A stretch of DNA of 29,915 nucleotides from a virus. A program made the position numbers and the translations under genes. The DNA lies in the IMG/VR virus record IMGVR_UViG_3300028027_000169, positions 1 through 29,915 of that record; one strand, given 5' to 3'. Shown piece after piece: positions 7,177-25,900 of the stretch (position 1 is its first letter; each line of letters opens with the position of its first letter). Under the pieces are notes generated by a model. That model was not told where the DNA came from. It saw nothing but the letters and a program-made list of their open reading frames with translations, and made no database searches.

Positions 7177-9250
7177 TAATAGTATTACTAATCCCGATAC
7201 GAGTACTAATAAGTTATACCTAACAATACCAAGCGGTGTTTATCCCCCGCCATCAAATGCTTCGGGCGAACCAACATGGAGTCAAGTTGTACAAAATCCC
7301 TCAAAATATTACATTAGATTAAATGGGGTTGGATTTGGAAATCCACTTGGAATTTATGCATATACAAACACAAATAACCCAAGTGACACTAACACATATT
7401 ATTACACGGATAATTCGATTTACGATTACACCGTACCATCAAACAATAATAAAGGTGTGACATTTGAATTATTTGATACAACACAGGTGCCAACAAATTC
7501 TCCATTATCAAATACGTCATCGGCAAGTGAATCATTACCAACGGGCTGCTCTCAATATATGACATTATATAATGAATCGTATGCTAAAGAAACATATTGT
7601 GTTAACGGATTTACTTCAACATATGACGAATTAAAAACTGTTACAAGAACCACCGGTTTTAGTTGTAGTGGGGGTAAAAATCCTGCAGGTCAAGTAATAT
7701 ATAGTAGCAAAGGTAATGAATGTTCAAGATGTATAACGTGGTCAGGATATTCTGAATTTAGAAACGGTTTATATACAATCATACCTTTTGCTGAAAGTAA
7801 GAATTGGGGTGCAAATATTGCGGCAATTGATGAATACTGTAGAAGAAAATTGGTTGGAAAGTTATTCTGTGAGGGTTTAGTAAATTATTCGTTCTTAGAT
7901 AATTGGTTGTCAGGTTCATTGTATTTCTTTCCATTTAAATCAAGAGTTGTTTGGGATGACGAAGAAAATTTAGACATTAGCGATTACGCAACTTCATACT
8001 GTAAAGATTTAGTTTATTACAAAGTAGGAACAAAAGAAAATCCCGATAAGAGATTTTATTATCGTTCGTCTTGGTATAACCCTGTAACAAATAAATTTGA
8101 CTCAGCAAGAGGAACATTGGCACACCCAACAACACTTGTTGATTTAGGTCCAAGAGACGAGTTTATTAAGGAGATATGTATTGACCCTAACTTAGACCCG
8201 AACTGCTCTGTGGTAAGGAATATAGGCCCAACATCGTATCAGGATATAAGACCTATCTTGGGATTATATATTAACTATAAATTAGATGTTGCAACTCCCG
8301 CAATCACTGGCGATATCTACGCATTTTTTAGGAACGAAGGATTTGATTCAAGATTACCATTCAAAATGCAAGGTCAAGTTTTAAATGGTGATATCCTACA
8401 ATTGATGTCAATGAATAGTGAAGCGGGTATAGATGGTTTTGATTTGTTAAGCAAGAAATATGAAATGTATAATCCTATACTTTTAGACCCCGATGTTTAT
8501 ACTGAATTCTTTAAATCAGATAATGGTAGTGCAAATGGTCCATTACCTGTGCAATTAAAATTAGATGAAACTGACGGATATCGTGTTAGAGCTTGTTTAA
8601 ATGAACCTGGTAGATTAACAGAATCTTCGCAGGTTGTTCCATTTTATTTATGGGAAAAAAATGGTACCGGATTTGGTACCGGCGTTGACCAAGCTTGGTA
8701 CTATCCTTCACCTGTAAATGGAAGCACCGTTGAAGCGCAACCATTACAAGGTATGACTTATAATTACAATTACAGCGGTGATACGACTCATCCTTATTTG
8801 TTATTACCAATGACCAAAGAATATAGTGGCGATGTTATTAAATTAAATGCTATCGCTAATCCATTGGTTGCTTCCACATTTAATATAGAACATTTTAATT
8901 ACGACATATACGGTAATTTTAACACAACCGGATTTACCACACATCAAATTTATGATGAACAAGAGGAAGGATTTACATTCCTTTATATTATTGGTGGTAA
9001 CGGAACATTAAGCGGAGCTACGGTTGGTAAACTGTATACTAGAAAAGGTAATACAGGGAGTTGGAATGTAATTGATTGGGACAATACAGTTGATTTTATA
9101 TTACCACCGACATCAAGAAACTATAGTGGAACAAGACAAATATTGTCAACACCATACCTTTATTATTTTGGATTGAAACCGGGTAAAACTGCGGTTGATA
9201 AATTTATTAAAAGATTTGGACCTTTAGGTGCATTCCCGTCTGCTGAATAA
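7157..9250 (+). CDS. Large structural protein, C-terminal part of the frame-split gene
   Basis: This is about 698 codons in the frame one base ahead of the preceding one. The frame is open from 7127, carries protein-like sequence throughout (for example NPDTSTNKLYLTIPSG and PTWSQVVQNPSKYYIRLNG) and has no ATG before 7559. The first possible alternative start is GTG at 7457. Such a long open stretch without a start supports continuity with the upstream frame. Content: beta-rich, with many Tyr, Gly and Asn and scattered Cys. There is an acidic, aromatic region around ESKNWGANIAAIDEYCRRKL and later KPGKTAVDKFIKRFGPLG near the C-terminus. No known domain is recognised. The TAA overlaps the next ATG by one base (9250). 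If an independent start existed, translation would begin at 7457 and the protein would be 597 residues. Confidence 0.7.
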   Translation, partial: FYSGTGSNSITNPDTSTNKLYLTIPSGVYPPPSNASGEPTWSQVVQNPSKYYIRLNGVGFGNPLGIYAYTNTNNPSDTNTYYYTDNSIYDYTVPSNNNKGVTFELFDTTQVPTNSPLSNTSSASESLPTGCSQYMTLYNESYAKETYCVNGFTSTYDELKTVTRTTGFSCSGGKNPAGQVIYSSKGNECSRCITWSGYSEFRNGLYTIIPFAESKNWGANIAAIDEYCRRKLVGKLFCEGLVNYSFLDNWLSGSLYFFPFKSRVVWDDEENLDISDYATSYCKDLVYYKVGTKENPDKRFYYRSSWYNPVTNKFDSARGTLAHPTTLVDLGPRDEFIKEICIDPNLDPNCSVVRNIGPTSYQDIRPILGLYINYKLDVATPAITGDIYAFFRNEGFDSRLPFKMQGQVLNGDILQLMSMNSEAGIDGFDLLSKKYEMYNPILLDPDVYTEFFKSDNGSANGPLPVQLKLDETDGYRVRACLNEPGRLTESSQVVPFYLWEKNGTGFGTGVDQAWYYPSPVNGSTVEAQPLQGMTYNYNYSGDTTHPYLLLPMTKEYSGDVIKLNAIANPLVASTFNIEHFNYDIYGNFNTTGFTTHQIYDEQEEGFTFLYIIGGNGTLSGATVGKLYTRKGNTGSWNVIDWDNTVDFILPPTSRNYSGTRQILSTPYLYYFGLKPGKTAVDKFIKRFGPLGAFPSAE

Positions 9251-10998
9251 TGGAAGAGAAAAAAGAAATAATTTTACCAAGTAAAAGATACGCTAATGCG
9301 GATGACCAAGAATTATCAATTAAGTTAAATCTTGAGACATCAGAATCTTTATTAAGAATTGGTGATAGAGATATCATTTTAGATGTTGCAAAATTATATG
9401 ATGATGAAAGAAATCGAAGTGTAAACTATAAGATATTTGGTAAAATGAATATGGTATTCCGTAATATGTACAGCGGAAATAGCAATTACGAATATCTTAA
9501 AGAAAGACTTTATTTAGTTGGTGATGGTAGTAACAATGATTTCACCGGTTTTATTCCATATGACGAGTTTGCATTCTTAAGAAGGGACTTATATAGAGAG
9601 GTAACATTAGTTCCAACTGGTACAACATTAGGCGGAGATTATAACCCATCAACAATAACATCAGGCTCGACACAACACACCACGGTTACTGCAATGAGTG
9701 CGCCATATCAAAATTGGAACATTTATTTATCGTACGCATATACCGGAGATACTCAATTCCCAATGAAATATTCATTAAGTGGGGGTACAACACATGAATT
9801 TGTTGCATCAGATGGTATACCATTTAGAGTGACCGGCAATACCAAAACATTTATATTAACAAGTCCTGTACCTCACGGTTTAAGTAGCGGTGAATATGTC
9901 ATCATAAACGGTAAAACATATTATGTTAATAATGTGGGAAATGAAATTTATGATTCCGAGAATTATGTGATAGTGCTTAATAAATCTCAATTTACATCGA
10001 CGGATGTTGATACATTAAACGCTTCATTAGTTGTTACAGGTAAAAGGTGTTTAGATAGAAACAATGTAAGTGGTTCCACATCAACATATTATGTAAGAAA
10101 ACATAAAACATTGACAAATACATCGGGATACATTTTAGATAATGTTGGTTTTGAGAATCCAATATTTGAACATGAAAGAAAATTATTGATAGAAAATAGT
10201 AATGGTGTAAATGATGTTCTTGTTGAAAGAAATAGACCTGAATCGGTTTTATTTGATTTTAAAGTGCCACTTGTATTAAGTGGATTAACAAACAATTTAG
10301 GATTTACACCAACCGAAGTTTTTGTTACAACAATTTATAGAAACGGAAATGGTTATTTTAATTATCCACCAAAGGTGGGATATAAATTTAATTTTCACGA
10401 TTCTTGGGTCGACGAACAATTTGATGGTGACACATCAAAAGAAACTAACATTGGTAGTGATACATTTACTAAATCGGGTTTCACATTTACATATGGCGAA
10501 GAGATACCAACGGGCACAACCTTAGTTGGTGATTTTGTTGAGTATAACAAAAAGGAAATAAAAGAAAGAGTAATCAGTGGCACATTTCATAAGATATATA
10601 ATCCAACCACACTATTTGATTATGGACAAACCGACAGTGAGGTTTACTCAGGTGCCACAGAAACAAACCCAATCGGTTTATATTATCAAGTACACCATAG
10701 GGTTAAGCTAAGAGAATTATCACCTTATTTAGAAACTGCAAAAACAAATCAGATTTATAATCTACCTGAGAATACGGTTTATGATAAAGATGAAAATGTA
10801 TGGAGATGGAGAGATTTATATTCACACGGATATATTGACCCAAATGGTTATGGTACAAATTTCCCATATGTTAATAATATTCATTACATAAAAAATGAAA
10901 TTAATCTTTATCTAAGAAACGAAAGATATTACACCAATAAACAAAATGGAGTTGCAAGTTTCAATTCAAGAACAAATACAAACAATTTAATCTGTTAA
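9250..10998 (+). CDS. Unrecognised virion structural protein (582 aa)
   Basis: I do not recognise a family. Its place between the baseplate wedge genes and the fibre genes, and its composition (rich in Tyr, Asn, Thr and Gly, predominantly beta, no signal peptide, no membrane segment), suggest a baseplate or tail-tip protein. Seen: a charged N-terminal region to about residue 70 (MEEKKEIILPSKRYANADDQELSIKL), then a beta-rich middle with loops such as TSGSTQHTT. The C-terminal segment at about 515-570 is aromatic and looks conserved (NVWRWRDLYSHGYIDPNGYG, then INLYLRNERYY). The ATG overlaps the previous stop in a TAATG arrangement, and the gene's own TAA overlaps the next ATG the same way. The three genes are therefore likely translated in a coupled fashion. 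T4 has gene 8 in the corresponding place, but no similarity is evident. Confidence 0.8.
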   Translation: MEEKKEIILPSKRYANADDQELSIKLNLETSESLLRIGDRDIILDVAKLYDDERNRSVNYKIFGKMNMVFRNMYSGNSNYEYLKERLYLVGDGSNNDFTGFIPYDEFAFLRRDLYREVTLVPTGTTLGGDYNPSTITSGSTQHTTVTAMSAPYQNWNIYLSYAYTGDTQFPMKYSLSGGTTHEFVASDGIPFRVTGNTKTFILTSPVPHGLSSGEYVIINGKTYYVNNVGNEIYDSENYVIVLNKSQFTSTDVDTLNASLVVTGKRCLDRNNVSGSTSTYYVRKHKTLTNTSGYILDNVGFENPIFEHERKLLIENSNGVNDVLVERNRPESVLFDFKVPLVLSGLTNNLGFTPTEVFVTTIYRNGNGYFNYPPKVGYKFNFHDSWVDEQFDGDTSKETNIGSDTFTKSGFTFTYGEEIPTGTTLVGDFVEYNKKEIKERVISGTFHKIYNPTTLFDYGQTDSEVYSGATETNPIGLYYQVHHRVKLRELSPYLETAKTNQIYNLPENTVYDKDENVWRWRDLYSHGYIDPNGYGTNFPYVNNIHYIKNEINLYLRNERYYTNKQNGVASFNSRTNTNNLIC

Positions 10999-11824: not shown

Positions 11825-14800
11825 ATGAAAAAAAATAAGTATACCATTAGACGTAAAAACATTTTAAATGTTAGACTGGTCTCTTTGACCGGACAGACTT
11901 GGTATGATATTAGTGATTACGAAACTCTTATTCCTTGGAGTGGCAATACTGGAGTTATGCCAACAGGCTCAACACCTTTTAATGGATATGTTGTTTATAA
12001 TGTTTCAGGTAATACAGGTAACACTTTAACTCAAAATTATTATAAATGGGGTATACCAACAGATAACACATGGAATTTAATGGTTGGTGCACCAATAACT
12101 AATTTAACTTCTACATCATTAAGAAACCCAACAGATGAATACGGTGCTTTAATTACCGGCACGACATTATATAATACCGGAACAACATTTAATATCGGAT
12201 ATTATGAATGGGTCAGTTCGTGGAATTTATTTAATCAAACATCGGGCGAAACATATAATGAAATTAATGGCGTATTAAACGGTAAAATCTACGATAACCA
12301 ACAACTTCCATTATACTTAGAAGCGACCGCAGATGAAATGGGTTCCATGGTTGCATTTGATGGTGCGGTTGGTGTTGAATCAACACAAAATCAAATTAAT
12401 GCAAACTTTATTTACGAAGTTGATTGTAATAAAGTTACTGTAATTAATACAACCAATCTAAATAATATTGCGGGTGTCGGTGAAATTATATTTACGGTAG
12501 ATTGGGGTGATGGAACCACATCGCCAATTGGCGTTGAAGGTATTTGTTCGGGAATTAATTGTCATAAAGCATTTAAAACATATACAACTAATGGTAGTAA
12601 AAACATTACCGTTAGATTAGATTCACCTTGGACTAATAATACATTATCTAAGTCGACAATGATTGATTGCAATGCTTTAGTGTCACCAACACCGCCGGCA
12701 ACAAGAACACCAACACCATCAATTACTGCAACACATACATTAACTCCAACATCAACACCAACAAATACTGTTACACCATCTATGACTCGTACACCAAGAC
12801 CTACGGTTACGAGAACACCAACAATGACACCATCAATGACACCAACGTTATCTATTGGTGCCACACCATCAATGACGCCATCAATAACACCAACAATTCT
12901 TTGTGTGTTTGAAATTGATATTGATGTAATATCAATATCGCAAGGTGATGGATGTTCAACATTATATACGGGCGGATATTCACCGGTACCACAAGAATTT
13001 GTTTTAGATATGTTACCTGCTGCGGGTACATTTACGTTTAATTTCACCGGTGGTACAATAACAGATACATTTAACATATATTACCCTGAGAACGTATTAT
13101 TAACAGGATACACATCAGTATCTAATGTGGCGGGTGGTCCATACGTATTATCTGTTGATGGTTCATCAGATAAAGTAAAAGTGGTTGTTAACCCTGTTGA
13201 TAATGGTCAAATTGAAACATTGTGGTCATTTATTGTTGGTTGTATCGTGCCGATTACACCAACTCCAACACCTACAAGAACTATTACCCCAACTGCGACG
13301 CCAACGGCAACTCCAACCATTACACCAACACATACGGTTACACCAACATCAACGCCTACAAAAACATTAACACCAACTCCATCTGTAACAAGGAATTATC
13401 TATGTAGTGATGTTGTGACAGGTAAGTATTCACCTGTTGTTCAAACATTCTTTATTAGTGCCGGTTCGTTACCGGGCGTTAGTGTATTTGAATATGGTAC
13501 GTATACGATTAATGATACGTTTCAATTATATTACCCATCAACAAGTTTAACGCCAACTTCAACATTTAGCGGAACTGGTTTTGGTAATATTACCGTGACC
13601 GGTTCTACATTAGCCGACAATATTATAAAAATTGTAATTGACGGTACCTCAGATGTTGAAACACAATGGTATTTTAATTTATATTGTGCAAATGTTTCTG
13701 TTTCGCCATCGGCAACAAAAACAGTAACACCTACTCCAACAATTACACCTACTAATACCAAAACATTAACACCTACACCTACTAAAACACCGGGTGCAAG
13801 TTTATCACCAACACCTACAAGAACACCGGCTTCTACTGTAACTCCAACAAGTACGGTTACTAATACACCTACAATCACACCAACTTCGACGATTACGCCG
13901 ACCAACACACCATCTAATACAGGAACACCGGCGGTCACAAGAACACCGACACGTACCGCTACACCAACAGCAACAATTTCACCTACACCAACAATTACTA
14001 AAACTCCAACAACAAGTGTAACGCCATCACCTGGTTCATCATCCTCGCCTACACCTACAATAACTCCAACTAATACGATTACACCAACGCGCACTGTTAC
14101 GCCAACAAATACCGTTACACCAACAGCTACAGTTACCCCAACAAACACGGTTACACCAACTCCTTCGGTAACCGCAACAATAACGCCAACATCGACAATT
14201 ACACCATCGTCGACAGCAACAATAACACCAACAAGTACATCAACAGTAACACCAACTGCGAGTGTCACCGCAACCATAACCCCTACGAGCACTATTACAC
14301 CAACACCAACGGCAACTGAAACGCCATCAGTAAGCGACACGCCAACCCCTACACCGACATCAACGATTACGCCAACATCAAGCGTAACACCTACCGTTAC
14401 GCCAACAAACACCATTACGCCAACAATCACACCTACCAATACAGTTACACCAACTGAAACAGTAACCCCTACACCGTCTGTAACTAATAGTGAAACACCT
14501 ACACCTACCCCAACAGAAACGGTTACACCTACAGGCACACCAACCCCAACAGCGACCGAAACACCGACAATGACCGCAACACCAAGTGTTACGCCGTCCG
14601 AGACAATTACGCCAACACCAACAGAAACACCAACGCCAACACCGTCTGTAACGTCTTCTTATGGTTCTTCACCAACACCAACGGAAACTATTACACCTAC
14701 CCCAACATTAACGCCAACAGGTACACCAACCCCAAGTGTAACCACAACAGTTACACCAACCAATACCATTACCCCCACCAACACACCAACAACAACTGAG

Positions 14801-15286
14801 AGTGAGACACCTACTCCAACTCCAACAAGCACGGTTACACCAACAAATACTGTAACACCAACACCTTCTGAGTCAGAAACTCCAACTCCGACACCGACAA
14901 GTACGGTTACACCAACAAATACTATAACACCAACTGAGACACCAACTCAAACTGCAACACCAACAATTACCCCAACAAATACAATTACACCAACGGAGAC
15001 CGTTACTCCTACATCAACGATTACACCAACTCAAACTGCAACACCATCTGTTACACCAACCAATACTATTACCCCAACCACCACACCAACAATAACAGAA
15101 AGTGAAACACCGACGCCTACACCAACCAATACGATTACACCAACAAGTACAATTACACCAACAAGTACAATTACACCAACACCTACCAATACACCAATAT
15201 CAACACAATCCGCACCACCATGCGACATCACATATAATGTGGTACCGTTTGATATGACTTGTGATATTACATATAATGTAATATAA
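11825..15286 (+). CDS. Giant modular fibre-like protein with Thr-Pro stalks and PKD-like domain
   Basis: This 1153-residue protein looks like beads on long stalks. Residues 1 to about 190 form a unique N-terminal part, probably for virion attachment. Residues about 195-285 resemble a PKD-like beta sandwich with VDWGDGTTS near 227. Three Thr-Pro stalks follow: about 287-356, 477-523 and 626-1132. Between them lie two related domains, at about 357-475 and 524-620, that share YSPV.Q.F..., T..DTF..YYP and ..ETQW.F...C. The last stalk has a six-residue rhythm, T-P-T-x-T-(V/I), with x mostly N, S, E, Q, A or P. The protein ends in two copies of CDITYNV (C1133 starts the first). No catalytic motif or signal peptide is seen. 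The start follows a 14-nt gap without a Shine-Dalgarno sequence. A receptor- or glycan-binding fibre is the best inference. Confidence 0.85.
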   Translation: MKKNKYTIRRKNILNVRLVSLTGQTWYDISDYETLIPWSGNTGVMPTGSTPFNGYVVYNVSGNTGNTLTQNYYKWGIPTDNTWNLMVGAPITNLTSTSLRNPTDEYGALITGTTLYNTGTTFNIGYYEWVSSWNLFNQTSGETYNEINGVLNGKIYDNQQLPLYLEATADEMGSMVAFDGAVGVESTQNQINANFIYEVDCNKVTVINTTNLNNIAGVGEIIFTVDWGDGTTSPIGVEGICSGINCHKAFKTYTTNGSKNITVRLDSPWTNNTLSKSTMIDCNALVSPTPPATRTPTPSITATHTLTPTSTPTNTVTPSMTRTPRPTVTRTPTMTPSMTPTLSIGATPSMTPSITPTILCVFEIDIDVISISQGDGCSTLYTGGYSPVPQEFVLDMLPAAGTFTFNFTGGTITDTFNIYYPENVLLTGYTSVSNVAGGPYVLSVDGSSDKVKVVVNPVDNGQIETLWSFIVGCIVPITPTPTPTRTITPTATPTATPTITPTHTVTPTSTPTKTLTPTPSVTRNYLCSDVVTGKYSPVVQTFFISAGSLPGVSVFEYGTYTINDTFQLYYPSTSLTPTSTFSGTGFGNITVTGSTLADNIIKIVIDGTSDVETQWYFNLYCANVSVSPSATKTVTPTPTITPTNTKTLTPTPTKTPGASLSPTPTRTPASTVTPTSTVTNTPTITPTSTITPTNTPSNTGTPAVTRTPTRTATPTATISPTPTITKTPTTSVTPSPGSSSSPTPTITPTNTITPTRTVTPTNTVTPTATVTPTNTVTPTPSVTATITPTSTITPSSTATITPTSTSTVTPTASVTATITPTSTITPTPTATETPSVSDTPTPTPTSTITPTSSVTPTVTPTNTITPTITPTNTVTPTETVTPTPSVTNSETPTPTPTETVTPTGTPTPTATETPTMTATPSVTPSETITPTPTETPTPTPSVTSSYGSSPTPTETITPTPTLTPTGTPTPSVTTTVTPTNTITPTNTPTTTESETPTPTPTSTVTPTNTVTPTPSESETPTPTPTSTVTPTNTITPTETPTQTATPTITPTNTITPTETVTPTSTITPTQTATPSVTPTNTITPTTTPTITESETPTPTPTNTITPTSTITPTSTITPTPTNTPISTQSAPPCDITYNVVPFDMTCDITYNVI
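12683..12893 (+). repeat. Thr-Pro stalk 1 of the first fibre protein
   Basis: About 70 codons of mostly Thr, Pro and Ser with scattered Met, Arg and Ala (TPTMTPSMTPT type). It joins the PKD-like domain to the first of the two related domains. Confidence 0.85.
13253..13393 (+). repeat. Thr-Pro stalk 2 of the first fibre protein
   Basis: About 47 codons of TPT-type sequence between the two related YSPV domains. It is too short to give a clear higher-order period. Confidence 0.85.
13702..15220 (+). repeat. Long Thr-Pro stalk 3 of the first fibre protein, six-residue period
   Basis: About 506 codons made almost only of Thr, Pro, Ser, Val and Ile, with Asn, Glu, Gln and Ala at the variable site of an 18-nt (six-codon) unit. 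The top strand is nearly free of G and T outside third positions and the Val/Ile codons. Third positions vary between neighbouring units, so the DNA is less repetitive than the protein. Confidence 0.9.
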
Positions 15287-15312: not shown

Positions 15313-17865
15313 ATGGCAACAACAGTTCAAATATTAACAACAAATTATAGCGGTCAAACCGCCACAATTACATTTTCACCATGTAGTGGAGGAACTGTCA
15401 ATTTAGGTTCACATATTTTGCCATACAATTATGTAAGTGACAACTATTTGGGTGATTATTCTTTATTTTTTGCCGATTTTAATCAAACTTGTACGTTTAA
15501 TATTCCATGTGTAACACCAACACCAACATCGACCGTTACACCAACTAACACACAAACACCTACAAATACTGTTACACCAACTGAAACTGTAACACCAACA
15601 AGTACAGTTACACCAACAAACACAGTAACTCCGACATCAACGTTGTCAGAAACTCCAACACCTACTGCAACAAGCACAATTACACCCACAAATACAATAA
15701 CCCCAACGCAAACACCAACAAATACAATTACTCCGTCAACTTCAGTATCGGAAACTCCAACACCCACACCTACAAATACTATTACACCAACACAAACACC
15801 AACTGAAACTGTAACACCAACAAGTACAGTTACACCAACAAACACAGTAACACCAACACCAACGGAGACTGTTACACCAACCGGTACAGTTACACCAACA
15901 GCAACTATAACAAGCACACCAACAGTTACACCAAGTGTTACTAACCCGCTTGATGGTGTAAATTATTTTATATCGGCAGATGCGTATGAAGTATGTTATA
16001 ATCAATCTATTAATCAAATAACAATATATGATGCGGATGTAATCGCTATTAATGATGTTTTATATCAATCACCATTAGGTATTGATACTTGGACAATTTC
16101 TGAATTACAAGCATTGTATGGAACAGGATTTACAACATTCTATATAAGAAAGAGCGACGGTACCGGTGACGTGTTTATAGTTACGGATAACGGAAATGGT
16201 GACGCTTTTGTTTCGACTTCAACTATCTGTGTAAGTCAAACACCAACCCCAACCCCTACACCAACATCTACAGTTACACCAACTGCAACAGAAACACCAA
16301 GTCAAACACCAACAAATACCATTACACCTACGAATACCGTGACACCAACTAGTACTGTGACACCAACTAGTACAGTAACACCATCAATTTCGACATCAGA
16401 AACACCAACTCCGACACCAACATCTACTATTACACCAACCGCAACAGAGACACCAAGTCAAACACCTACAAGCACAATTACACCAACAAATACTATTACA
16501 CCAACACAAACACCAACTGAAACTGTAACACCAACAAGTACAGTAACGCCAACACAAACACCAACCGAAACCGTAACACCAACTGAAAGTGTAACACCAA
16601 CACCAACAAATACAGTTACACCAACAAATACAGTTACACCAACAAATACAGTAACACCATCGACTTCAACGTCGGAAACACCAACTCCTACACCGACAAG
16701 TACAGTTACACCTACCAATACCATAACGCCAACAGCAACTACAACAATGACACCAACAATGACGCAATCAATTGATTGTATTGTTGGAGCCACATTTACT
16801 GAAATTTACGAGGTACCTTCACCAACACCAACACCAACCCCGACAGTAACTGCAACACCAACTAACACTGTTACACCAACACCAACCCCTTCAATTAATA
16901 CATCACCAACACCAACAATTAGTGTTACCCCATCAATAACACCAATACCAACAAGTTCGTCATTCCCAACCGTACCAAATTATAGTGGACAATTAACTAT
17001 TACTCAATCAATCTGTTTAGCGTCCGACCCCGCATTTGTTAGTGTTTATTATAGAAATTATGATGGACATAGTGATAAATTAAATTGGTTAAATATTAAA
17101 AATGCTACAGAAAATTCATATCGTAATTCTAATGAATTACATGTTAAACAAATCTATAATGTTGCGGGTCAACAATTATTACAACGTTATGGCGGTGTAA
17201 ATAATGATGATTATGCAAGAATAGATTTAAGTTACTATACGGGCACAATTATACCGGGGAACATGTATTTTGTAAAATATGATGTTTATTGTATATCAGA
17301 TACTCATTGTGGGTGTACTGGAAGTACTTTAGCACTGTATGAAGAAGTTAGTCAGTTTGTAGTTTATAACTTAGGCGTTGGGGATTCAACTTCATCACTT
17401 GTTAAGTTTAGCACCAATACAAGTGGAGAATATGCGTGTTATCCGTTTAATGAAACAAAAGAAATATATTACAATATTGCACAAACAAATATTAGTTCAG
17501 GTGCACCTTTGTCAGTTGGGTCAACAATCTACACAAATTCAATGAAGACAGTAACAGCACCTGCGGGTGCGTATGTTATGAGAAACAATAACAAATATAT
17601 TGTAAACTCAAGTGGTGTGGTAACATCAATTGAAACCAATGCTTGTACAACCCCACCAACATTCTCACTTGAATTTAAGAAACCAACATTTGGACCATTT
17701 TTAATTGGTAATTCACAATTTCCATTAGTTGTGGGTAATTCTTACAATTTATATAACGGAGATTGTGCTGTAGCTACGTTAAGAGGTACTGTACAAAGTA
17801 AAACGGGTACTGCCGGCAATATAATGATAACATTAACAAATTGGACATTCTATTGTGATAACTAA
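15313..17865 (+). CDS. Giant modular fibre-like protein with NPLD domain and Thr-Pro stalks
   Basis: This 850-residue protein has the same build as its neighbours. Residues 1-66 are a small N-terminal domain ending in CTFNIPC. A Thr-Pro stalk runs to about 207. Residues about 208-307 form a domain starting SVTNPLDGVNYFISADAYEVCY and ending near TDNGNGDAFVS; it recurs twice in the next gene. A second stalk (about 310-485) ends at a short segment, IDCIVGATFTEIYEVPS, and a third stalk runs to about 552. The C-terminal 298 residues are unique, beta-rich and Cys-containing (CISDTHCGCTGS, and a final WTFYCDN) and are the likely receptor-binding or tip region. No known enzyme motif is visible. The gene has its own TATTTATA element and a 26-nt gap from the previous gene, so it may be transcribed separately. 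Virion location is inferred from context. Confidence 0.85.
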   Translation: MATTVQILTTNYSGQTATITFSPCSGGTVNLGSHILPYNYVSDNYLGDYSLFFADFNQTCTFNIPCVTPTPTSTVTPTNTQTPTNTVTPTETVTPTSTVTPTNTVTPTSTLSETPTPTATSTITPTNTITPTQTPTNTITPSTSVSETPTPTPTNTITPTQTPTETVTPTSTVTPTNTVTPTPTETVTPTGTVTPTATITSTPTVTPSVTNPLDGVNYFISADAYEVCYNQSINQITIYDADVIAINDVLYQSPLGIDTWTISELQALYGTGFTTFYIRKSDGTGDVFIVTDNGNGDAFVSTSTICVSQTPTPTPTPTSTVTPTATETPSQTPTNTITPTNTVTPTSTVTPTSTVTPSISTSETPTPTPTSTITPTATETPSQTPTSTITPTNTITPTQTPTETVTPTSTVTPTQTPTETVTPTESVTPTPTNTVTPTNTVTPTNTVTPSTSTSETPTPTPTSTVTPTNTITPTATTTMTPTMTQSIDCIVGATFTEIYEVPSPTPTPTPTVTATPTNTVTPTPTPSINTSPTPTISVTPSITPIPTSSSFPTVPNYSGQLTITQSICLASDPAFVSVYYRNYDGHSDKLNWLNIKNATENSYRNSNELHVKQIYNVAGQQLLQRYGGVNNDDYARIDLSYYTGTIIPGNMYFVKYDVYCISDTHCGCTGSTLALYEEVSQFVVYNLGVGDSTSSLVKFSTNTSGEYACYPFNETKEIYYNIAQTNISSGAPLSVGSTIYTNSMKTVTAPAGAYVMRNNNKYIVNSSGVVTSIETNACTTPPTFSLEFKKPTFGPFLIGNSQFPLVVGNSYNLYNGDCAVATLRGTVQSKTGTAGNIMITLTNWTFYCDN
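15574..15629 (+). repeat. 56-bp direct repeat, copy 1
   Basis: A stretch of about 56 bases starting ACACCAACTGAAACTG is repeated without mismatch at 15796-15851, 222 bp (74 codons) downstream in the same frame. Recombination between copies would remove or duplicate stalk length without breaking the frame. Confidence 0.85.
15796..15851 (+). repeat. 56-bp direct repeat, copy 2
   Basis: Second copy of the repeat at 15574-15629, in the same orientation and frame. Confidence 0.85.
16240..16968 (+). repeat. Thr-Pro stalks 2 and 3 of the second fibre protein
   Basis: TPT-type repeat runs from about 16240 to 16770 and from 16816 to 16968. The short non-repeat segment IDCIVGATFTEIYEVPS interrupts them. 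Within the first run, an ACAAATACAGTTACACCA unit is nearly perfectly repeated three times around 16606-16660. Confidence 0.85.
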
Positions 17866-17890: not shown

Positions 17891-20776
17891 ATGGCAAGAT
17901 ATTTTTATGTAAAAATTACTTCGGGAACATCACAAGGACCTTACAACATATATTATGATGGTATAAGTACCAACTATGCAACTTTAGTTTACGGTGGCGG
18001 TAACGCTGTAAATGTTTCATTTATTGATTTAACAACTCATTTAGGTGTTCTTGTTTCTGTACCTAACGGTACGTCAAGCGTAACACTTTTAAATACAAAA
18101 GAAAATTGTTCATTTGACGTTACATATTCTGTACCAAGCCCAACACCAAGCCCAACGCCAACAGTTACCCCAACAAGTACAATCACACCAACAGAAACGC
18201 CAACAAGCACGGTTACACCAACAGCAACAATAACACCAACAAATACTGTTACACCAACAGCAACAATAACACCAACAAATACTGTTACACCAACACCAAC
18301 TATTACACCGAGTGTAACAAATCCACTAGATGGTTCTAATTACTTTATTGCATCTGATTCATATTCAGTGGTATATAACCCAATTGAACAAATAACAATA
18401 TACGATGCTGATACAATTGGAATAAATGATATTCTTTATCAGATACCAACGGGAGCTGATGTTTGGACAATAGCTGAGATTCAAACAATTTTAGGTACAG
18501 GTTTCACAACATTCTACATTAGAAAAACTGATTATACGGGTGATGTTTTCACAGTTACAGATAACGGAAGTGGGGCTGCGTTTGTTAGTGCGGCGGAACC
18601 ACCAGTATCGTCTACACCAACACCAACTCAAACACCTACGCCAACAAATACAATTACTCCAACAGAAACCGCAACACCAACAAGCACGGTTACACCAACA
18701 CCAACGGCTACACCAACAATTACGCCAACTCAAACTGTTACTCCAACAGAAACTGTTACACCGACAAATACTGTAACACCAACATCAACAGTTACTCCGT
18801 CTATTACACCGACAAATACAGTTACGCCTACAAATACAATTACACCAACAGAAACACCAACAAATACTATAACTCCAACACCGAGTATCACTACAACTAT
18901 TACACCTACTAATACAGTAACACCAACAGAAACTGTTACACCAACACCAAGTATTACTGCGACTATTACACCTACTAATACAGTAACACCAACAGAAACT
19001 GTTACACCAACACCAACTATCACTACTTCAATTACACCAACAGAAACTACTACACCAACACCAACTATTACACCTTCAATTACACCAACAGAAACTGTTA
19101 CACCAACAAGTACGGCTACGCCAACAAACACAATTACACCGACAAATACTGCTACGCCAACAAGTACGATTACTCCAACACCAACCATGACAATGACACC
19201 TACTCCAACAGTAACACCAAGTGTTACTAATCCATTGGATGGTTTCAATTATTTTGTGTCAACAGATGCATATTCGGTATGTCATAGCCCGATACAACAA
19301 TTAACATTCTATGATGCGGATACGATAGCAGTAAATGATATTTTATATCAAGTACCTGATGGGACTGATGTTTATACAATAGCAGAATTGCAAGTAATTT
19401 TTGGTACGGGATTCACAACATTCTTTATTAGAAAAACCGATTATACTGGTGACGTTTATACAGTAACAGATAATGGTAGTGGAACTGCATTTGTTAGTGC
19501 GTCGGCACCTTGCGTATCATCTACGCCAACACCAACACAAACAAGCACACCTACTGTGACGCCAACAGTAACGGTTACACCTACGTCAACCACCACACCA
19601 ACAAATACAATTACGCCAACAAGTACCGTAACACCATCAATTACACCTACAAATACCGTTACACCAACAAACACTGTAACACCAACAAGCACTATCACAC
19701 CATCAATTACTCCTACAAACACCGTTACACCAACAAACACGGTAACCCCAACACGTACAGTTACACCAACGGCTCAACCAACTACCACGCCAACGGCTCA
19801 ACCAACATCTACACCAACGGCTCAACCAACTACCACACCAACGGCTCAACCAACATCTACACCAACGGCTCAACCAACTACCACACCAACGGCTCAGCCA
19901 ACATCCACGCCAACGGCTCAACCAACATCTACACCAACGGCTCAACCAACATCCACGCCAACGGCTCAACCAACATCCACGCCAACAGCGCAACCAACCC
20001 CAAGTCCGGCTGCGAGATATAGATATTTAAGATATACATATGATACGTTAACTTGTTTAACAACAAGTGAACCTACAGCCGTTTGGTCTTATAGTAATGT
20101 TGGAAGCGGTTTTTATAATACATTAGATGGTGATTTTTATTTATCCACCACATTTCACACTGATGACTCAATACAAATCACAATAGGTGTTCAATTAAGT
20201 TGTATACCACCTTCAGTTACACCAACACGTACACCAACACGTACACCAACTCCAACACCTACACCCGCTGCTATTACGGCAACAATTACAAGTTCAAATG
20301 TTTCATGTAATGGTGGGTCTAACGGCTCAATTACCGTAACCAATGTTGCGGGCGGATTTGGTGGACCATATCAGACTAAGCTAAATGCGGGAGGAACATA
20401 TACAACATGGACATCATCAACCACATATAGTAGTTTGGCGGCAGACTCTTATACTATTTATGTAAAGGATAGTGCATCAAGAGAAGTTACATTTGGGGTA
20501 ACAATAACACAACCAAATTCTCTTGGAATTTTTGCACAAAAAACTGCGTTTGACCAAATTTATGCTTCCGTTTCAGGTGGAGCTTCTGGTTCCAAAACGT
20601 TTGAATTATATGTAGACTACGACTCACCATATGAAATCGGTGGCGGTAGCTTGGTTGATACATTATATGACTCATCTAGTGTTACATTTAATAGTGTTGT
20701 AGCAGGATACTATTATGTTAAGGTTACAGATAATAATGGTTGTTCGGAAACAACGGCTTATATGATAACAATCTAA
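17891..20776 (+). CDS. Giant modular fibre-like protein with two NPLD domains and SprB-like C-terminus
   Basis: This 961-residue protein is built of modules. Residues 1 to about 78 form a small N-terminal domain ending CSFDVTYSVPSPTPT. Two copies of the SVTNPLDG domain lie at about 141-241 and 444-545. Each has YFI/YFV, a YDAD.I..ND.LYQ.P core, TGFTTF.IRKTDYTGDV and TDNGSG.AFVS. Three Thr-Pro stalks separate the parts; the last includes ten tandem PTAQPT(T/S)T units at residues 626-705. A bridging domain spans about 710-775. The end (about 795-961) has two SprB-like repeats: SNVSCNGGSNGSITVTNVAGG...YTIYVKDS and a second closing YYYVKVTDNNGCSETT. SprB repeats are typical of Bacteroidota surface adhesins. 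The gene is likely an adhesin-like tail fibre. No enzyme motif is seen. Confidence 0.86.
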   Translation: MARYFYVKITSGTSQGPYNIYYDGISTNYATLVYGGGNAVNVSFIDLTTHLGVLVSVPNGTSSVTLLNTKENCSFDVTYSVPSPTPSPTPTVTPTSTITPTETPTSTVTPTATITPTNTVTPTATITPTNTVTPTPTITPSVTNPLDGSNYFIASDSYSVVYNPIEQITIYDADTIGINDILYQIPTGADVWTIAEIQTILGTGFTTFYIRKTDYTGDVFTVTDNGSGAAFVSAAEPPVSSTPTPTQTPTPTNTITPTETATPTSTVTPTPTATPTITPTQTVTPTETVTPTNTVTPTSTVTPSITPTNTVTPTNTITPTETPTNTITPTPSITTTITPTNTVTPTETVTPTPSITATITPTNTVTPTETVTPTPTITTSITPTETTTPTPTITPSITPTETVTPTSTATPTNTITPTNTATPTSTITPTPTMTMTPTPTVTPSVTNPLDGFNYFVSTDAYSVCHSPIQQLTFYDADTIAVNDILYQVPDGTDVYTIAELQVIFGTGFTTFFIRKTDYTGDVYTVTDNGSGTAFVSASAPCVSSTPTPTQTSTPTVTPTVTVTPTSTTTPTNTITPTSTVTPSITPTNTVTPTNTVTPTSTITPSITPTNTVTPTNTVTPTRTVTPTAQPTTTPTAQPTSTPTAQPTTTPTAQPTSTPTAQPTTTPTAQPTSTPTAQPTSTPTAQPTSTPTAQPTSTPTAQPTPSPAARYRYLRYTYDTLTCLTTSEPTAVWSYSNVGSGFYNTLDGDFYLSTTFHTDDSIQITIGVQLSCIPPSVTPTRTPTRTPTPTPTPAAITATITSSNVSCNGGSNGSITVTNVAGGFGGPYQTKLNAGGTYTTWTSSTTYSSLAADSYTIYVKDSASREVTFGVTITQPNSLGIFAQKTAFDQIYASVSGGASGSKTFELYVDYDSPYEIGGGSLVDTLYDSSSVTFNSVVAGYYYVKVTDNNGCSETTAYMITI
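18612..19219 (+). repeat. Thr-Pro stalk between the two NPLD domains
   Basis: About 200 codons of TPTxT(V/I) repeat linking the two copies of the NPLD domain. It contains a 66-bp tandem duplication at 18899-19030. Confidence 0.88.
18899..19030 (+). repeat. 66-bp tandem duplication inside a stalk
   Basis: Two adjacent 22-codon units, 18899-18964 and 18965-19030, each read ITPTNTVTPTETVTPTP followed by a variable end (SITAT or TITTS). Differences lie in the last few codons. It looks like a recent in-frame duplication. Confidence 0.85.
19766..20005 (+). repeat. 24-bp minisatellite, ten units (PTAQPT[T/S]T)
   Basis: Ten head-to-tail 24-nt units, each coding for PTAQPTTT or PTAQPTST, the last diverged to PTAQPTPS. 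The first part (CCAACGGCTCAACCAAC) is almost invariant; changes fall mainly in codons 6-8. Units 1-6 alternate TTT and TST types, so a 48-bp pair may be the older duplication unit. The frame is kept for any change in copy number. Confidence 0.95.
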
Positions 20777-21479: not shown

Positions 21480-21986
21480 ATGCTACTTGAATTAGGTTCA
21501 TTAACATTTACATTACCATATGGTACTGGTCAAACAGTAAACCAAGGTTATGAAAATGATTTAGATTATACCGCATACACCGGTAACACTAATTTTACGG
21601 GTATAACGTATTATAATGCAATTGGTTTAAGTAAACTATCCGAATATAAAAAGTATGGAGGGAATGGCCATACTATAGCATTAAATATTGTTGACAATAT
21701 AACAGGTTACACTATTGATAACATTTATTATAAGGATTACCCTGAGGGTTACACAATTTTAACCGGTAACACGGTCGGATTTACAAAAGAAGAAGTAATT
21801 TTTGAAGTATTATCTCGTAACGAACATTTTTTAGGTTTTGTTGAAGAACCAACAATTTATTCCGATGTTTTTGTTGAACGCGGTAAACAAGGTGTTATGG
21901 AGATGAATTTAAGATTAGGTGAAATTGAAAACATGGGGGAATTAAGTGTATATGGAAATGGTTATTTTAAAGTGAAAAAACAATAA
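21480..21986 (+). CDS. Unrecognised virion protein (168 aa)
   Basis: This 168-residue protein has no recognised family. Seen: an N-terminal beta segment (MLLELGSLTFTLPYGTGQTVNQGYENDLDY), then YYNAIGLSKLSEYKKYGG. The C-terminal region looks well ordered: FVEEPTIYSDVFVERGKQGVMEMNLRLGEIENMGELSVYGNGYFKV. The tail of mixed charged and hydrophobic residues with Gly turns suggests a compact beta structural protein. The phrase DVFVERGKQGVMEMNLRL looks like a conserved assembly contact. The leader is 79 nt long and contains a perfect hairpin close to the ATG, so this gene may be expressed separately from the one before. From context it is a tail or baseplate component. No catalytic motif is seen. Confidence 0.78.
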   Translation: MLLELGSLTFTLPYGTGQTVNQGYENDLDYTAYTGNTNFTGITYYNAIGLSKLSEYKKYGGNGHTIALNIVDNITGYTIDNIYYKDYPEGYTILTGNTVGFTKEEVIFEVLSRNEHFLGFVEEPTIYSDVFVERGKQGVMEMNLRLGEIENMGELSVYGNGYFKVKKQ

Positions 21987-22012: not shown

Positions 22013-22936
22013 ATGGCAGTAGGTTCATATGGTATAGTTAGACCGGCAGACGTATCCCCAGCAGATGTTGAGATATTTTATCATTATACATCAGGTAGAA
22101 CGGCTACGGCACCGGTAACACTAAAGAAATTAATATCAACAGATGTTTTAACACCCGTATTTCATAATTCCGATACAACGGATGACGGAGCAGCACCAAA
22201 TGCTGAGATATTGGGTGGTTTATATAACTTAAAGTTAAATGCAAGTGATTTTGCTAACTTAGGAATATATACATTACACATAAGACCAAAACAAATTAGA
22301 ACAACAATTACGGATTGTGGTGTTTTAGCTTCACTTCCATCAGTTAGAGGATTGGTTATTGATACATCAAATGTACCGGCGGCAGATAGAAACAAATTCA
22401 CACCACAAGGAATGGTCGGTTATCGTGTTGAATATATTAATACAACAGATAACAGAACAAAAATACCGAATTTTTATAGAGTTGTAACATCATCATTTTA
22501 TTGTCAACCAATTACTTCCAATCTAACAAATACAACTGACAAAGCTGTAAGATATCAATATACTGACCAAGTAAGTAACTTAATATTCATGACGATTACA
22601 CCTTCGTCATCACCATCGAGTAGACCAAATGTTATTCCATTTATTGGACAACCGGGTCAAAAAATCATATTAACCAATACGTTTGTTAATCCAACAACAA
22701 TTGAGGTTGATATGGTTGAACATGATGCATCTACATTAGCTCACGCATTGTACGGTAATCAAACTAAAGCGATTACTCCGGGTATCTACACAATCTACGA
22801 TGATAATAACCAAATTTACAAACAATACAATCTATACGAAATCAAAGACGAATTTAGTGAGACACTATATGAGGTTCGTGAAGAAAGAACGGATATTGAT
22901 GAAACATTAGGATTAGATAACATTACTGACGTATAA
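22013..22936 (+). CDS. Unrecognised virion structural protein (307 aa)
   Basis: This 307-residue protein is likely co-translated with the giant gene that follows, because its stop overlaps that ATG by one base (TAATG). Seen: the N-terminus MAVGSYGIVRPADVSPADVEIFYHYTSGR reads like a beta domain, and GGLYNLKLNASDFANLGIYTLHIRPKQIRTTI has the shape of an Ig-like strand pair. A Pro/Ser turn (TPSSSPSSRPNVIPFIGQPGQK) lies at about 198-220. The C-terminal 70 residues are acidic (YEIKDEFSETLYEVREERTDIDETLGLDNITDV) and may form a helix that contacts another baseplate protein. There are no Cys clusters, membrane segments or enzyme motifs. Placed before the tail-protein-I-like gene, it is probably a baseplate-periphery component. 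The family is not recognised. Confidence 0.8.
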   Translation: MAVGSYGIVRPADVSPADVEIFYHYTSGRTATAPVTLKKLISTDVLTPVFHNSDTTDDGAAPNAEILGGLYNLKLNASDFANLGIYTLHIRPKQIRTTITDCGVLASLPSVRGLVIDTSNVPAADRNKFTPQGMVGYRVEYINTTDNRTKIPNFYRVVTSSFYCQPITSNLTNTTDKAVRYQYTDQVSNLIFMTITPSSSPSSRPNVIPFIGQPGQKIILTNTFVNPTTIEVDMVEHDASTLAHALYGNQTKAITPGIYTIYDDNNQIYKQYNLYEIKDEFSETLYEVREERTDIDETLGLDNITDV

Positions 22937-25900
22937 TGGCAAAAGTAGTTAAGTATAAAGTTCCGAGTCAGGCCGCTAGTGGGGCACAAACGTTTAGTGA
23001 CAATTTAGTCGGTATTCAAATTACCGATGGTAGTAGTCAATTGACTAATACCAACTTTGCACTCGACAGAGCAACACCTGAAAAAGATAGTAAAAGTTTT
23101 TCAAGCGTACCATTTTCTGATTTCTTAACGTTAGACACTTTAAAAGAAGAAACTAATGCACCAAAAACAAATACATCAAAAACAACAAAAGATGTTATTA
23201 AGTTTAGACCATCAAGAAGTGATGCGGGACGTTCATTATTTGGTTCATTAAAAGAAAGAATAAACATTTCACTTGGTAGAATAATTGCTAAGTTTCCTGC
23301 GTCGTTATTAGCTGATAGCTCAACAGTAACAAAAACAACAAACTATACTGCGGAGAATATTTCATATGATAGTGTAACTAAAATTACTCAATTCGAATCA
23401 CAACAATCAATTTTTTACAATCCTTTTGAAATTATATTAACAAAGCCTAATAGCAATGTCATAATTGAGACCGATAACCCTGTTAGAGATTTTTATTCAG
23501 CGTTTAAAAATTATGTGTTAATATATCAAGGTGTTTCATACAACATCACAAATTATACCGAACCAACTTTTGATAATAACTTTGTTTTAACGTTAGAAGT
23601 TGAGGGTAATTTATTTAGTGGATACACTGATGTAAATTTTGATTATGTTATTAAACCAAATGATAGCATCATTGAGGAATTCTTTAAAAATTTAGATGAC
23701 CTTGAGGAATTATTACTTAATAGAGAATCAAATCCAATATACACTTCAAGTTTCAGAGTACCAAGAGACAATTACGATAACAGTGCAACTGATTTAGTTG
23801 GTGTTAACGTATCATGGCCGGTATCAAAAGATGGTTGGAATCCACAAATTGTGGGTATTGAATACAATCAATTTGTTCAAAGCTTATTTGATTTATCGGA
23901 TGAGATTGATGATTATAAGTCTAATTTAATTGTTAGATTCTTAACATCACCACAACTATTTGAATTCGACACGGAAGATAAAAGAGCTGAGTCCGTATTC
24001 CAATTATATGGTCAAAGCTTTGATAGTGTAAAAAAATACATTGATAACATTGCGTTCATGAGACATGTGAGTTACGATGCTATCAATAACATACCTGACA
24101 TGTTGTTAAAAAACTTGTCACAAAACTTGGGACTTGATACCGTAAATCTTTTCGATGAGAAAAGTTTAAACGATATTCTTTACACAAGACAAGATAGTAA
24201 CTATTCAGGTGTTGCTGTTGGTAAGAATTTAATTGAATCAGAATACGAATTCTATAGAAGAATTTTAATTAACTTAGCTCAATTATATAAGTCAAAAGGT
24301 ACACGTAAAACTTTAGAATTCTTTTTAAAATTCTTGGGTGCGCCGGAGCCAATGATTAAAATCAATGAGTATGTTTATGAGGTAACAAAATTACCAAACA
24401 TATCAACATTAGAGGATGATTTGTATGATGTTATTAATGACATTAAAACAGATTTTGTAATTACAGGTTTTTCTGCGAGTACATACACATATTTGACAGG
24501 TACAACAACTTCGTCAAGTGCATTAACAAGAGACGAATATCCAATTGATGAGAATGGTTTACCAAGAAAAGCGTATACCTCAAACGGTAATTTATATTTC
24601 CAAAAAGGTTCAGGTTGGTATGACATAACATTACAGCACCGGTCACCATTAATCTTAGATGAAGCGAATTCACAGTTAACGGGTAGATTAAAATTTACCA
24701 AAACCAAAAATGCACCCTATACTTACGGTGAAGATTACTTTGATGTTTTTAGAAATTTACCCGGCTTAGATTATGGTTTTGACTTAGAATCCAAAGTTGA
24801 TAATTTAAAAATCAAAAACAGTTCTAATGACCAAGAATCGTCATTAATATTAAATAGAAAAAATATTAGCGTTTACTTATCACCATCACAAACAATTGAT
24901 TATGATATTTGGAGACAATCAAAGAATGGTACCGTTAATTTTGGTGGATTAACACCACAAACAGGCATAACATTCGCAGAATTTATTGATAATGTATTAT
25001 CAAACGTCATCAAAAATTCACACTCAGTTAGATACGAAAAGACATACATTAGCTTAGAAGATGTCTACAATGCTTATGTTAGTACGGTAGAAGTACCATA
25101 TGATTTTATAACCCTTAATGAGTTTGTCAACAAAATGAGTCCATATTGGGTGCAAGTTGTAGAACAATTTATCCCCGCAACCACATTATGGACTGGTGGT
25201 AACGTTATTGAGAACGGTAAATTAGGTCGTTCGAAATTTAAATACAGAAAGCCATGTCAATTAGTTGAAATTATTGATGATGTTTATCCTGAAATTGGAT
25301 TTAGAACATACGTTAATGAAATCATCACGGATGTTAGCACAGGATTTCAACTACAATTTGGCGATTCAAATAAAGATGGTTATATAAGAATATTCCCAAC
25401 ATTTGAAATTGATGGGGTTAAGTACTCAGGAAACACAAGTGACACATCAACATATGTAGTTTTAAGTGGAACAACATCAAGCACAACAACATCACCCAAA
25501 CGAGCAAGTTTATATTGTGGAACAGCGGGAAATACTTTAGATGTTGGAGCGGAAGGTGCTGATGCGTATGATAGTACTTATTGTATTGACTTAGACGCAT
25601 TACATATATTATGGAAAGATGCAATTGTTGGTGCAATTAATTACATAAACAACAATTTTGGGTTTAATATTGATAATGTTGGTAAAAATACGGTTTATGG
25701 TAATAGTATTGGCAATTCAGCATTAACGGGCACAACAAATGGACCGTTATTATCGTATGAATTCTTTACTGATGATAATGGTAATGAAAAAATTAAATTC
25801 AAGTCATATAAATATGGACCAAATAGTTGTACCATAGTGAATTCATTTAATTTCTTTATGGGGTCACCATTATATTATCCAATTACATACGATGCGGTTA

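Follow-up and report, generated by a model that had tools for sequence, protein, structure and literature searches.

The locus described here raises two questions: whether two similar segments in a Thr/Pro-rich viral protein are copies of a single domain, and what such a domain might do on a phage fibre. The window, by which we mean the whole stretch of virus DNA analysed (29,915 bases, positions 1-29,915 of IMG/VR record IMGVR_UViG_3300028027_000169), is probably a fragment of a longer virus genome, and its lineage is one of uncultivated phages.

Gene neighbourhood and layout of the first fibre protein

The first fibre gene lies in a tail cluster, as indicated by upstream matches to two PHROGs annotated as baseplate wedge subunit (phrog_261, E = 2e-17, and phrog_6, E = 2.5e-21), which we take to be the genes named gp25 and gp6. 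Downstream of the wedge genes are three Thr/Pro-rich open frames (11825-15286, 15313-17865 and 17891-20776), referred to here as fibres 1 to 3, and a large conserved tail protein is encoded at 22936-27744 on the plus strand, with Thr-Pro stretches of its own. From gene position and composition we infer that the first-fibre protein is a virion fibre. The neighbouring gene at 9250-10998 has relatives at 52 IMG/VR loci, three of which lie in records 251-311 kb long. A tblastn search with its protein found no match at E 1e-3 in 50,697 GenBank phage records, a set that may lack the window's own record and very close ones, and a second neighbouring protein used as query at the same threshold likewise returned nothing from these records.

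The first fibre protein (ORF 11825-15286, plus strand, 1153 aa) carries both of the segments in question in frame. Its N-terminal part (11825-12685), delimited by hmmsearch over 54 sequences, includes a WGDGT stretch that is presumably PKD-like, and Pfam gave no match to this region (12407-12670). A Thr-Pro stalk follows at 12686-12895, its ends approximate and drawn from composition and sequence, and leads into the first module, D1 (12896-13249, containing Cys377 and Cys473 of the ORF), a Thr-Pro linker (13250-13381) and the second module, D2 (13394-13693, or 13382-13693 with wider limits, containing Cys527 and Cys621). The original prediction, which had placed the paired domains at 12894-13690, was off at its start, since 12894 is out of frame and its reading meets 13 stops; the remaining coordinates stand. 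After D2 comes a long distal Thr-Pro stalk (13694-15211), variable among relatives, in which Thr occupies almost each second position and a weaker additional period of six is present; our guess is that it forms an extended or beta-like rod, perhaps O-glycosylated. The protein closes with a short Cys-containing tail (15212-15286) in which CDITYNV occurs twice. A similar CSFDVTYSV closes the N-terminal domain of fibre 3, and the fibre 1 tail may thus be a remnant of a domain of that kind.

Two copies of one domain family

The two segments of about 100 residues had been said to share three motifs, and all three are present in both (YSPVPQEF and YSPVVQTF, TITDTFNIYYP and TINDTFQLYYP, and ETLWSFIVGC and ETQWYFNLYC, in D1 and D2, respectively). 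The linker at 13250-13381 is the Thr-Pro stalk that was described as parting them. BLASTP aligns the two at 51.6 bits, with 31 of 97 positions identical, and the local alignment score of 126 is well beyond that expected by chance (shuffle mean 33.5, maximum 77). The proposed internal duplication is borne out by the profiles of D1 and D2 orthologues (four rows each), which align in hhalign with a probability of 98.8% and E = 1.3e-16, and by the separate clades that D1 and D2 form. The protein that holds both segments has a biased composition, and for this reason we weighed the possibility that their likeness reflects chance or convergence of Thr-rich beta sequence. This is ruled out, and has practically no probability in our estimate, because none of 2000 shuffles reached the observed score, because of the profile-profile E value, and because a profile of the two copies picks up four further copies in the relative L033 with domain E values of at most 1.3e-8. 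One domain family, duplicated long ago, gave both D1 and D2; we call it the YSPV module.

Distribution of the module among relatives

The profile built from both copies, the search that the original prediction had proposed, recovered the pair in L005, L006, L007, L008 (almost identical to the window) and L009, and the four copies in L033; L068, also with four copies, was added by scanning with those of L033. Of 50 whole records, 7 show a match (E 0.1 or better). The other 43 have no match, although these records are fragments and a non-match need not mean that the module is lacking. L068 was itself found through the YSPV module, and among the 49 records found via the neighbouring gene the number with a match is 6. 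A match on the minus strand of L026 (E = 0.0076) was excluded from the set. One divergent copy with a similar W-to-C ending lies in the large tail gene of the L053 record (E = 2.2e-6 and 3.2e-5). In this L053/L088 copy, a single YSPV-like domain (L088 4137-4520), a DTDGDGY loop resembles a calcium-binding loop, though its EF-hand match is weak (E = 0.19). A single GenBank phage match to this copy, 40 residues long at E = 0.7, was taken as chance.

Four columns, C, G, P and C, do not vary across 16 aligned copies, one further G and three F are near-invariant, and the two invariant Cys lie at the two ends of every copy. The YSPV string falls outside the invariant columns and is not a signature of the family. 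In a midpoint-rooted tree of 18 rows (16 of them different, L008 left out), the five D1 copies form one clade (97/94) and the five D2 copies another (97/98), with the L033 and L068 copies apart from both (99/97). This indicates that the duplication came before the divergence of the five pair-bearing sequences, which amount to four distinct ones, the L005 and L009 copies being identical. The pair is old, and the window and four relatives retain both copies.

Synonymous change exceeds non-synonymous change in both modules in all three sequence pairs compared, with dN/dS of about 0.14-0.32 for D1 and D2, although in three of the six comparisons dS exceeds 1. Between the closing Cys of D1 and the opening Cys of D2 the linker spans 53 residues in all five sequences (four distinct linkers), and the stretch after D2 measures 532, 975, 907 and 1257 residues in the four sequences that a contig end does not truncate.

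The family appears to be undescribed in the libraries that we searched. For the 16 members, no Pfam family scored above its cut-off, and no NCBIfam family did so either (best E 0.043, in one member); Pfam PPC, CUB and GOLD gave zero matches among them at E 10, a search in which the HMMER filters drop weak matches. Single modules found at best a weak PHROG match (E = 0.0051, in one of the 16 members; no cut-off was available for PHROGs here). A 266-aa stretch matched phrog_15511 at E = 1.5e-4 over residues 119-215, which correspond to the linker and about the first half of D2; since D2 alone has no PHROG match, we read this as a match to the stalk. The PPC model PF04151 found nothing in three large phage records. 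In the 50,697 GenBank phage records, tblastn gave no match to the D1-D2 stretch at E 0.01 or to the L033 modules at E 1. Scans of bacterial genome contigs based on short patterns, which distant kin would escape, found no YSPV relatives. A PDB sequence search brought up SAKe6FE (E = 3e-5 and 1.8e-4), a likeness of about 30 residues in which no single stretch passed, and this was judged to be chance. Among literature titles and abstract openings we saw no description of the module, which does not prove its absence.

Predicted fold

An AlphaFold2 model of D1, linker and D2 (257 residues, 9 rows) has a mean pLDDT of 67.1, with good confidence in D2, moderate confidence in D1 (ten-residue block means 41-78) and low confidence in the linker. 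It places eight strands in D1 and eight corresponding strands in D2, with one short extra strand just ahead of D2. The folds of the two copies, which might have been predicted to differ, agree in having an identical strand order, the feature by which the models were compared. D2 modelled alone (16 rows) is an eight-strand jelly-roll with pLDDT 88.3 and pTM 0.82.

Among the fold families listed by VIA-align, D2 matches SIDT1 (Z 11.2), the PPC domain 5sv5 (Z 11.0, rmsd 2.2 over 95 residues), the collagen-binding domain 3jqw (Z 10.5), a single domain of 5iku (Z 10.4), the GOLD domain 7rrm (Z 10.1) and the CUB-bearing Kremen (Z 9.5), with identities to D2 of 6-12%. The SIDT1 matches, with Z up to 11.2, are tied with PPC and indicate the fold class only. 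Scores for PPC, GOLD, CUB and SIDT1 differ by no more than about 2 Z units, and the fold singles out none of them. Foldseek gives a TM of 0.72 (TMq) for D2 against 5sv5 and finds no PDB chain for D2 at E 1e-3; against viral models, nine matches reach E 1e-3 or better, the best being an uncultured Caudovirales protein (6.2e-6), and a Flavobacterium phage protein (2.7e-4) is also among them. By its predicted fold, the YSPV module would be a jelly-roll of PPC/CUB/GOLD type, and we do not file it as a member of PPC.

The Cys pair allows a different reading, in which the two residues form inter-subunit or inter-domain disulfides and lock the fibre covalently, as in Bacillus endospore appendages (ENA). 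Invariant Cys at both domain ends would suit such a role, one of the 16 members weakly matches PF13157 (Enas; E = 0.0058), and the fold searches also return the ENA chain 7a02 (Z 8.7 for the pair model; Foldseek E = 8.9e-3, TMq 0.39 for D2). However, the PF13157 match comes from that single member and, at 17.1 bits, is under the curated cut-off of 22, PPC, GOLD and CUB chains outscore ENA, and an intradomain clasp of N- to C-terminus would account for the two Cys equally well. We regard covalent locking of the ENA kind as very improbable.

Modules in different tail genes

The original prediction saw in the paired domains a module type unrelated to the NPLD domain, and support for a mix-and-match fibre. 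At the profile level the first point holds, as a YSPV profile of 16 rows and an NPLD profile of 6 rows do not align (probability 0.1%, five columns aligned). As an account of evolutionary history the second is also upheld, with YSPV, NPLD, SprB-containing and other modules residing in differing host genes. The YSPV modules lie in the first-fibre gene of the window, L005, L006, L007, L008 and L009, whereas in L033 and L068 four copies each are carried, as two back-to-back pairs, by the homologue of the large tail gene (22936-27744). Profiles of the first-fibre and large-tail N-terminal parts have no ORF in common among the matches listed. The presence of YSPV in a different tail gene of two relatives marks it as a shuffled module. 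Taken jointly, the homology, fold class and shuffling of the YSPV modules are in our judgement close to certain.

NPLD modules are found in fibre 2 (15943-16230) and twice in fibre 3 (18320-18604 and 19229-19513), all on the plus strand, and by profile NPLD occurs in fibres 2 and 3 and also in the first fibre of L010. The fibre 2 copy (15949-16233) has a weak match to the carbohydrate-binding CBM30 (E = 0.045, 14.1 bits, cut-off 27). The C-terminal module of fibre 3 (20255-20773, plus strand) contains a SprB repeat (PF13573, 31.3 bits, cut-off 28), an assignment made by Pfam in the two sequences tested; by profile this module is present not just in fibre-3 genes, since L053 has it in the first fibre and L056 in the large tail gene. 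The fibre-2 C-terminal module likewise turns up by profile in the window's fibre 2, and L009 and L010 have it in the first fibre. The L010 record also has, in a gene whose N-terminus is of the fibre-3 type, modules resembling those that end the large tail protein of the window. Two further arrangements were seen in other records: L090 (8142-10925) combines a fibre-3-type N-terminus with the C-terminal module of the large tail protein and four matches to the profile of the module that lies near 26.2 kb in that protein of the window, and a fibre-3-type gene of L087 has five profile hits of the fibre-3 C-terminal (SprB) module in a row. A Calx-beta-like identity was considered for the modules near 26.2 kb and dropped, as Pfam has no match to 26179-26724.

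Single-linkage clustering of 268 non-stalk segments agrees with the profiles and adds two smaller clusters that occur in more than one gene. The clustering left out L008, L051 and minus-strand frames, 39 of its clusters hold a single segment, and 126 segments have no host-gene label; it chained the SprB cluster to genes of the 10998 type, and we do not rely on this chaining.

Recent exchange of modules by repeat-mediated recombination through identical stalk DNA is not supported, because the sharing of stalk DNA mostly falls within that of synonymous shuffles. Among the six pairs formed by the four fibre and tail genes, only fibres 1 and 3 exceed the maximum of 15 shuffles, and their excess is confined to shared 18-mers (67 vs 41); the five other pairs are below or within the shuffles. 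Repeats inside fibre 2, fibre 3 and the large gene exceed the synonymous shuffles, and those inside fibre 1 equal their maximum.

The proposed anchor gene

The N-terminal part of the first fibre (11825-12685) and a small protein encoded at 21480-21986 (plus strand) are homologues of the N-terminal and C-terminal halves, respectively, of a protein that most relatives encode as one gene. Of 54 sequences, among which are near-duplicates, 36 have a single open frame of 259-488 aa that joins both halves, and in many of these one-frame proteins an NPLG-like motif lies at the junction; in 13 of the 54 the second half was beyond reach or not found. A separate second-half gene downstream of the fibres is present in the window, L009, L010 and L053, and the extended records of L007 and L013 show the split state as well. 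In L055 the anchor gene looks broken into overlapping frames. L026 has the first-fibre N-terminal part twice in a row (12961-13587 and 13660-14436), one copy on a short Thr-Pro protein and the other fused to the second half. This unrooted comparison fits either history, an insertion of the fibres into a single gene or a later fusion of two.

We judge evenly balanced the broader proposal that these genes form a general-purpose chassis of baseplate anchor and Thr-Pro stalk, on which at least five unrelated module families (YSPV, NPLD, SprB-containing, fibre-2 C-terminal and large-tail-protein end modules) would be interchangeable over at least four tail-cluster genes. In the branch of the window, the fibre cluster lies between the halves of the one-gene protein, as if inserted.

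Possible function

We propose that the N-terminal part of the first fibre would anchor the protein on the baseplate or tail, and that the Thr-Pro stalk would hold the compact modules off the virion at a fixed spacing. The YSPV modules may contact the host surface, either a glycan or a surface protein, giving multivalent and probably reversible attachment, and exchange of modules between fibre genes could retune host range. This explanation, in which duplicated jelly-rolls on a Thr-Pro stalk serve as shuffled host-contact modules, is the one that we favour, with fair but limited confidence. In its favour we count the homology and retention of both copies, the excess of synonymous change, the constant linker, the fold matches, the presence of YSPV and other modules in more than one host gene, the baseplate wedge neighbours and the SprB repeat of fibre 3. 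Against it count the PDB matches of Foldseek, none of which reaches E 1e-3, the moderate confidence of the D1 model and the small share of records (7 of 50, all fragments) with a match.

The main rival to host binding is a purely structural role. The PPC/CUB/GOLD fold serves many purposes, pure spacing among them, and the YSPV modules could be structural beads that make stretches of the Thr-Pro stalk rigid, trimerise them or cap them and determine the length of the stalk, with no contact with the host. The constant linker would be expected of such beads, as would the Cys pair, invariant in 16 of 16 copies as in a clamped, stability-first domain, and the multiplied copies of L033 and L068. On the other hand, 43 of the 50 records, fragments as they are, have no match to the module, and spacers have no obvious need to be replaced in homologous genes by unrelated NPLD, SprB-containing and other modules. 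A role confined to structure is possible in our estimate but the less probable of the two; that the modules would recognise a ligand on a surface, and not just make the fibre rigid, seems slightly favoured.

SprB is a surface-adhesin repeat linked to Bacteroidota. The SprB repeat of fibre 3, together with a prediction published for aquatic jumbo phages (PMC12619734), would point to a host among the Bacteroidota.

Relation to known systems

The jelly-roll of D2 is common to PPC domains (PF04151) and to the collagen-binding domains of collagenases (5sv5, 3jqw, 5iku). Collagen-binding domains occur in tandem, as do D1 and D2, but the arrangement of the pair is not common to both, the tandem 5iku fitting the D1-D2 model with an rmsd of 11.6 over 190 residues. 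Unlike PPC, the YSPV module has an invariant terminal Cys pair and lies on a likely phage fibre rather than on a protease. CUB and GOLD score in the same jelly-roll class as D2, too close to PPC to be told apart from it, and the 16 YSPV members are without a match to their Pfam profiles; the endospore appendage family PF13157 matched one of 16 members below the cut-off, as given above. The SprB repeat (PF13573) changes host gene in the same cluster too, as a module distinct from YSPV.

Modular phage fibres as such are already a known kind. In the mosaicism of phage receptor-binding proteins, homologous domains are common to otherwise unrelated tail proteins, according to Smug et al. 2023 (PMC10684548). 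The YSPV module, found in two different host genes, resembles those mosaics, but differs from them in that the changes take place within one lineage, among its fibre and tail genes, with long Thr-Pro stalks as joints. Moraphages are described, in the passages of PMC12619734 that we drew on, as uncultivated aquatic phages with genomes of up to 307 kb, gp25 and gp6, and predicted Bacteroidota hosts. Baseplate wedge genes are present in both systems, and three records here measure 251-311 kb; those passages do not treat fibre modules (PMC12619734). Our guess, which sets the window beside the moraphages by description and not by sequence, is that it belongs to their lineage.

One uncultivated lineage provides a worked example of fibre diversification in which small folded modules, borne on the same kind of Thr-Pro stalk, are spread over different fibre and tail genes. 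The analysis defines a domain family with a predicted fold that is not clearly in the libraries used, and the alignment of 16 copies makes the YSPV module findable in other phages.
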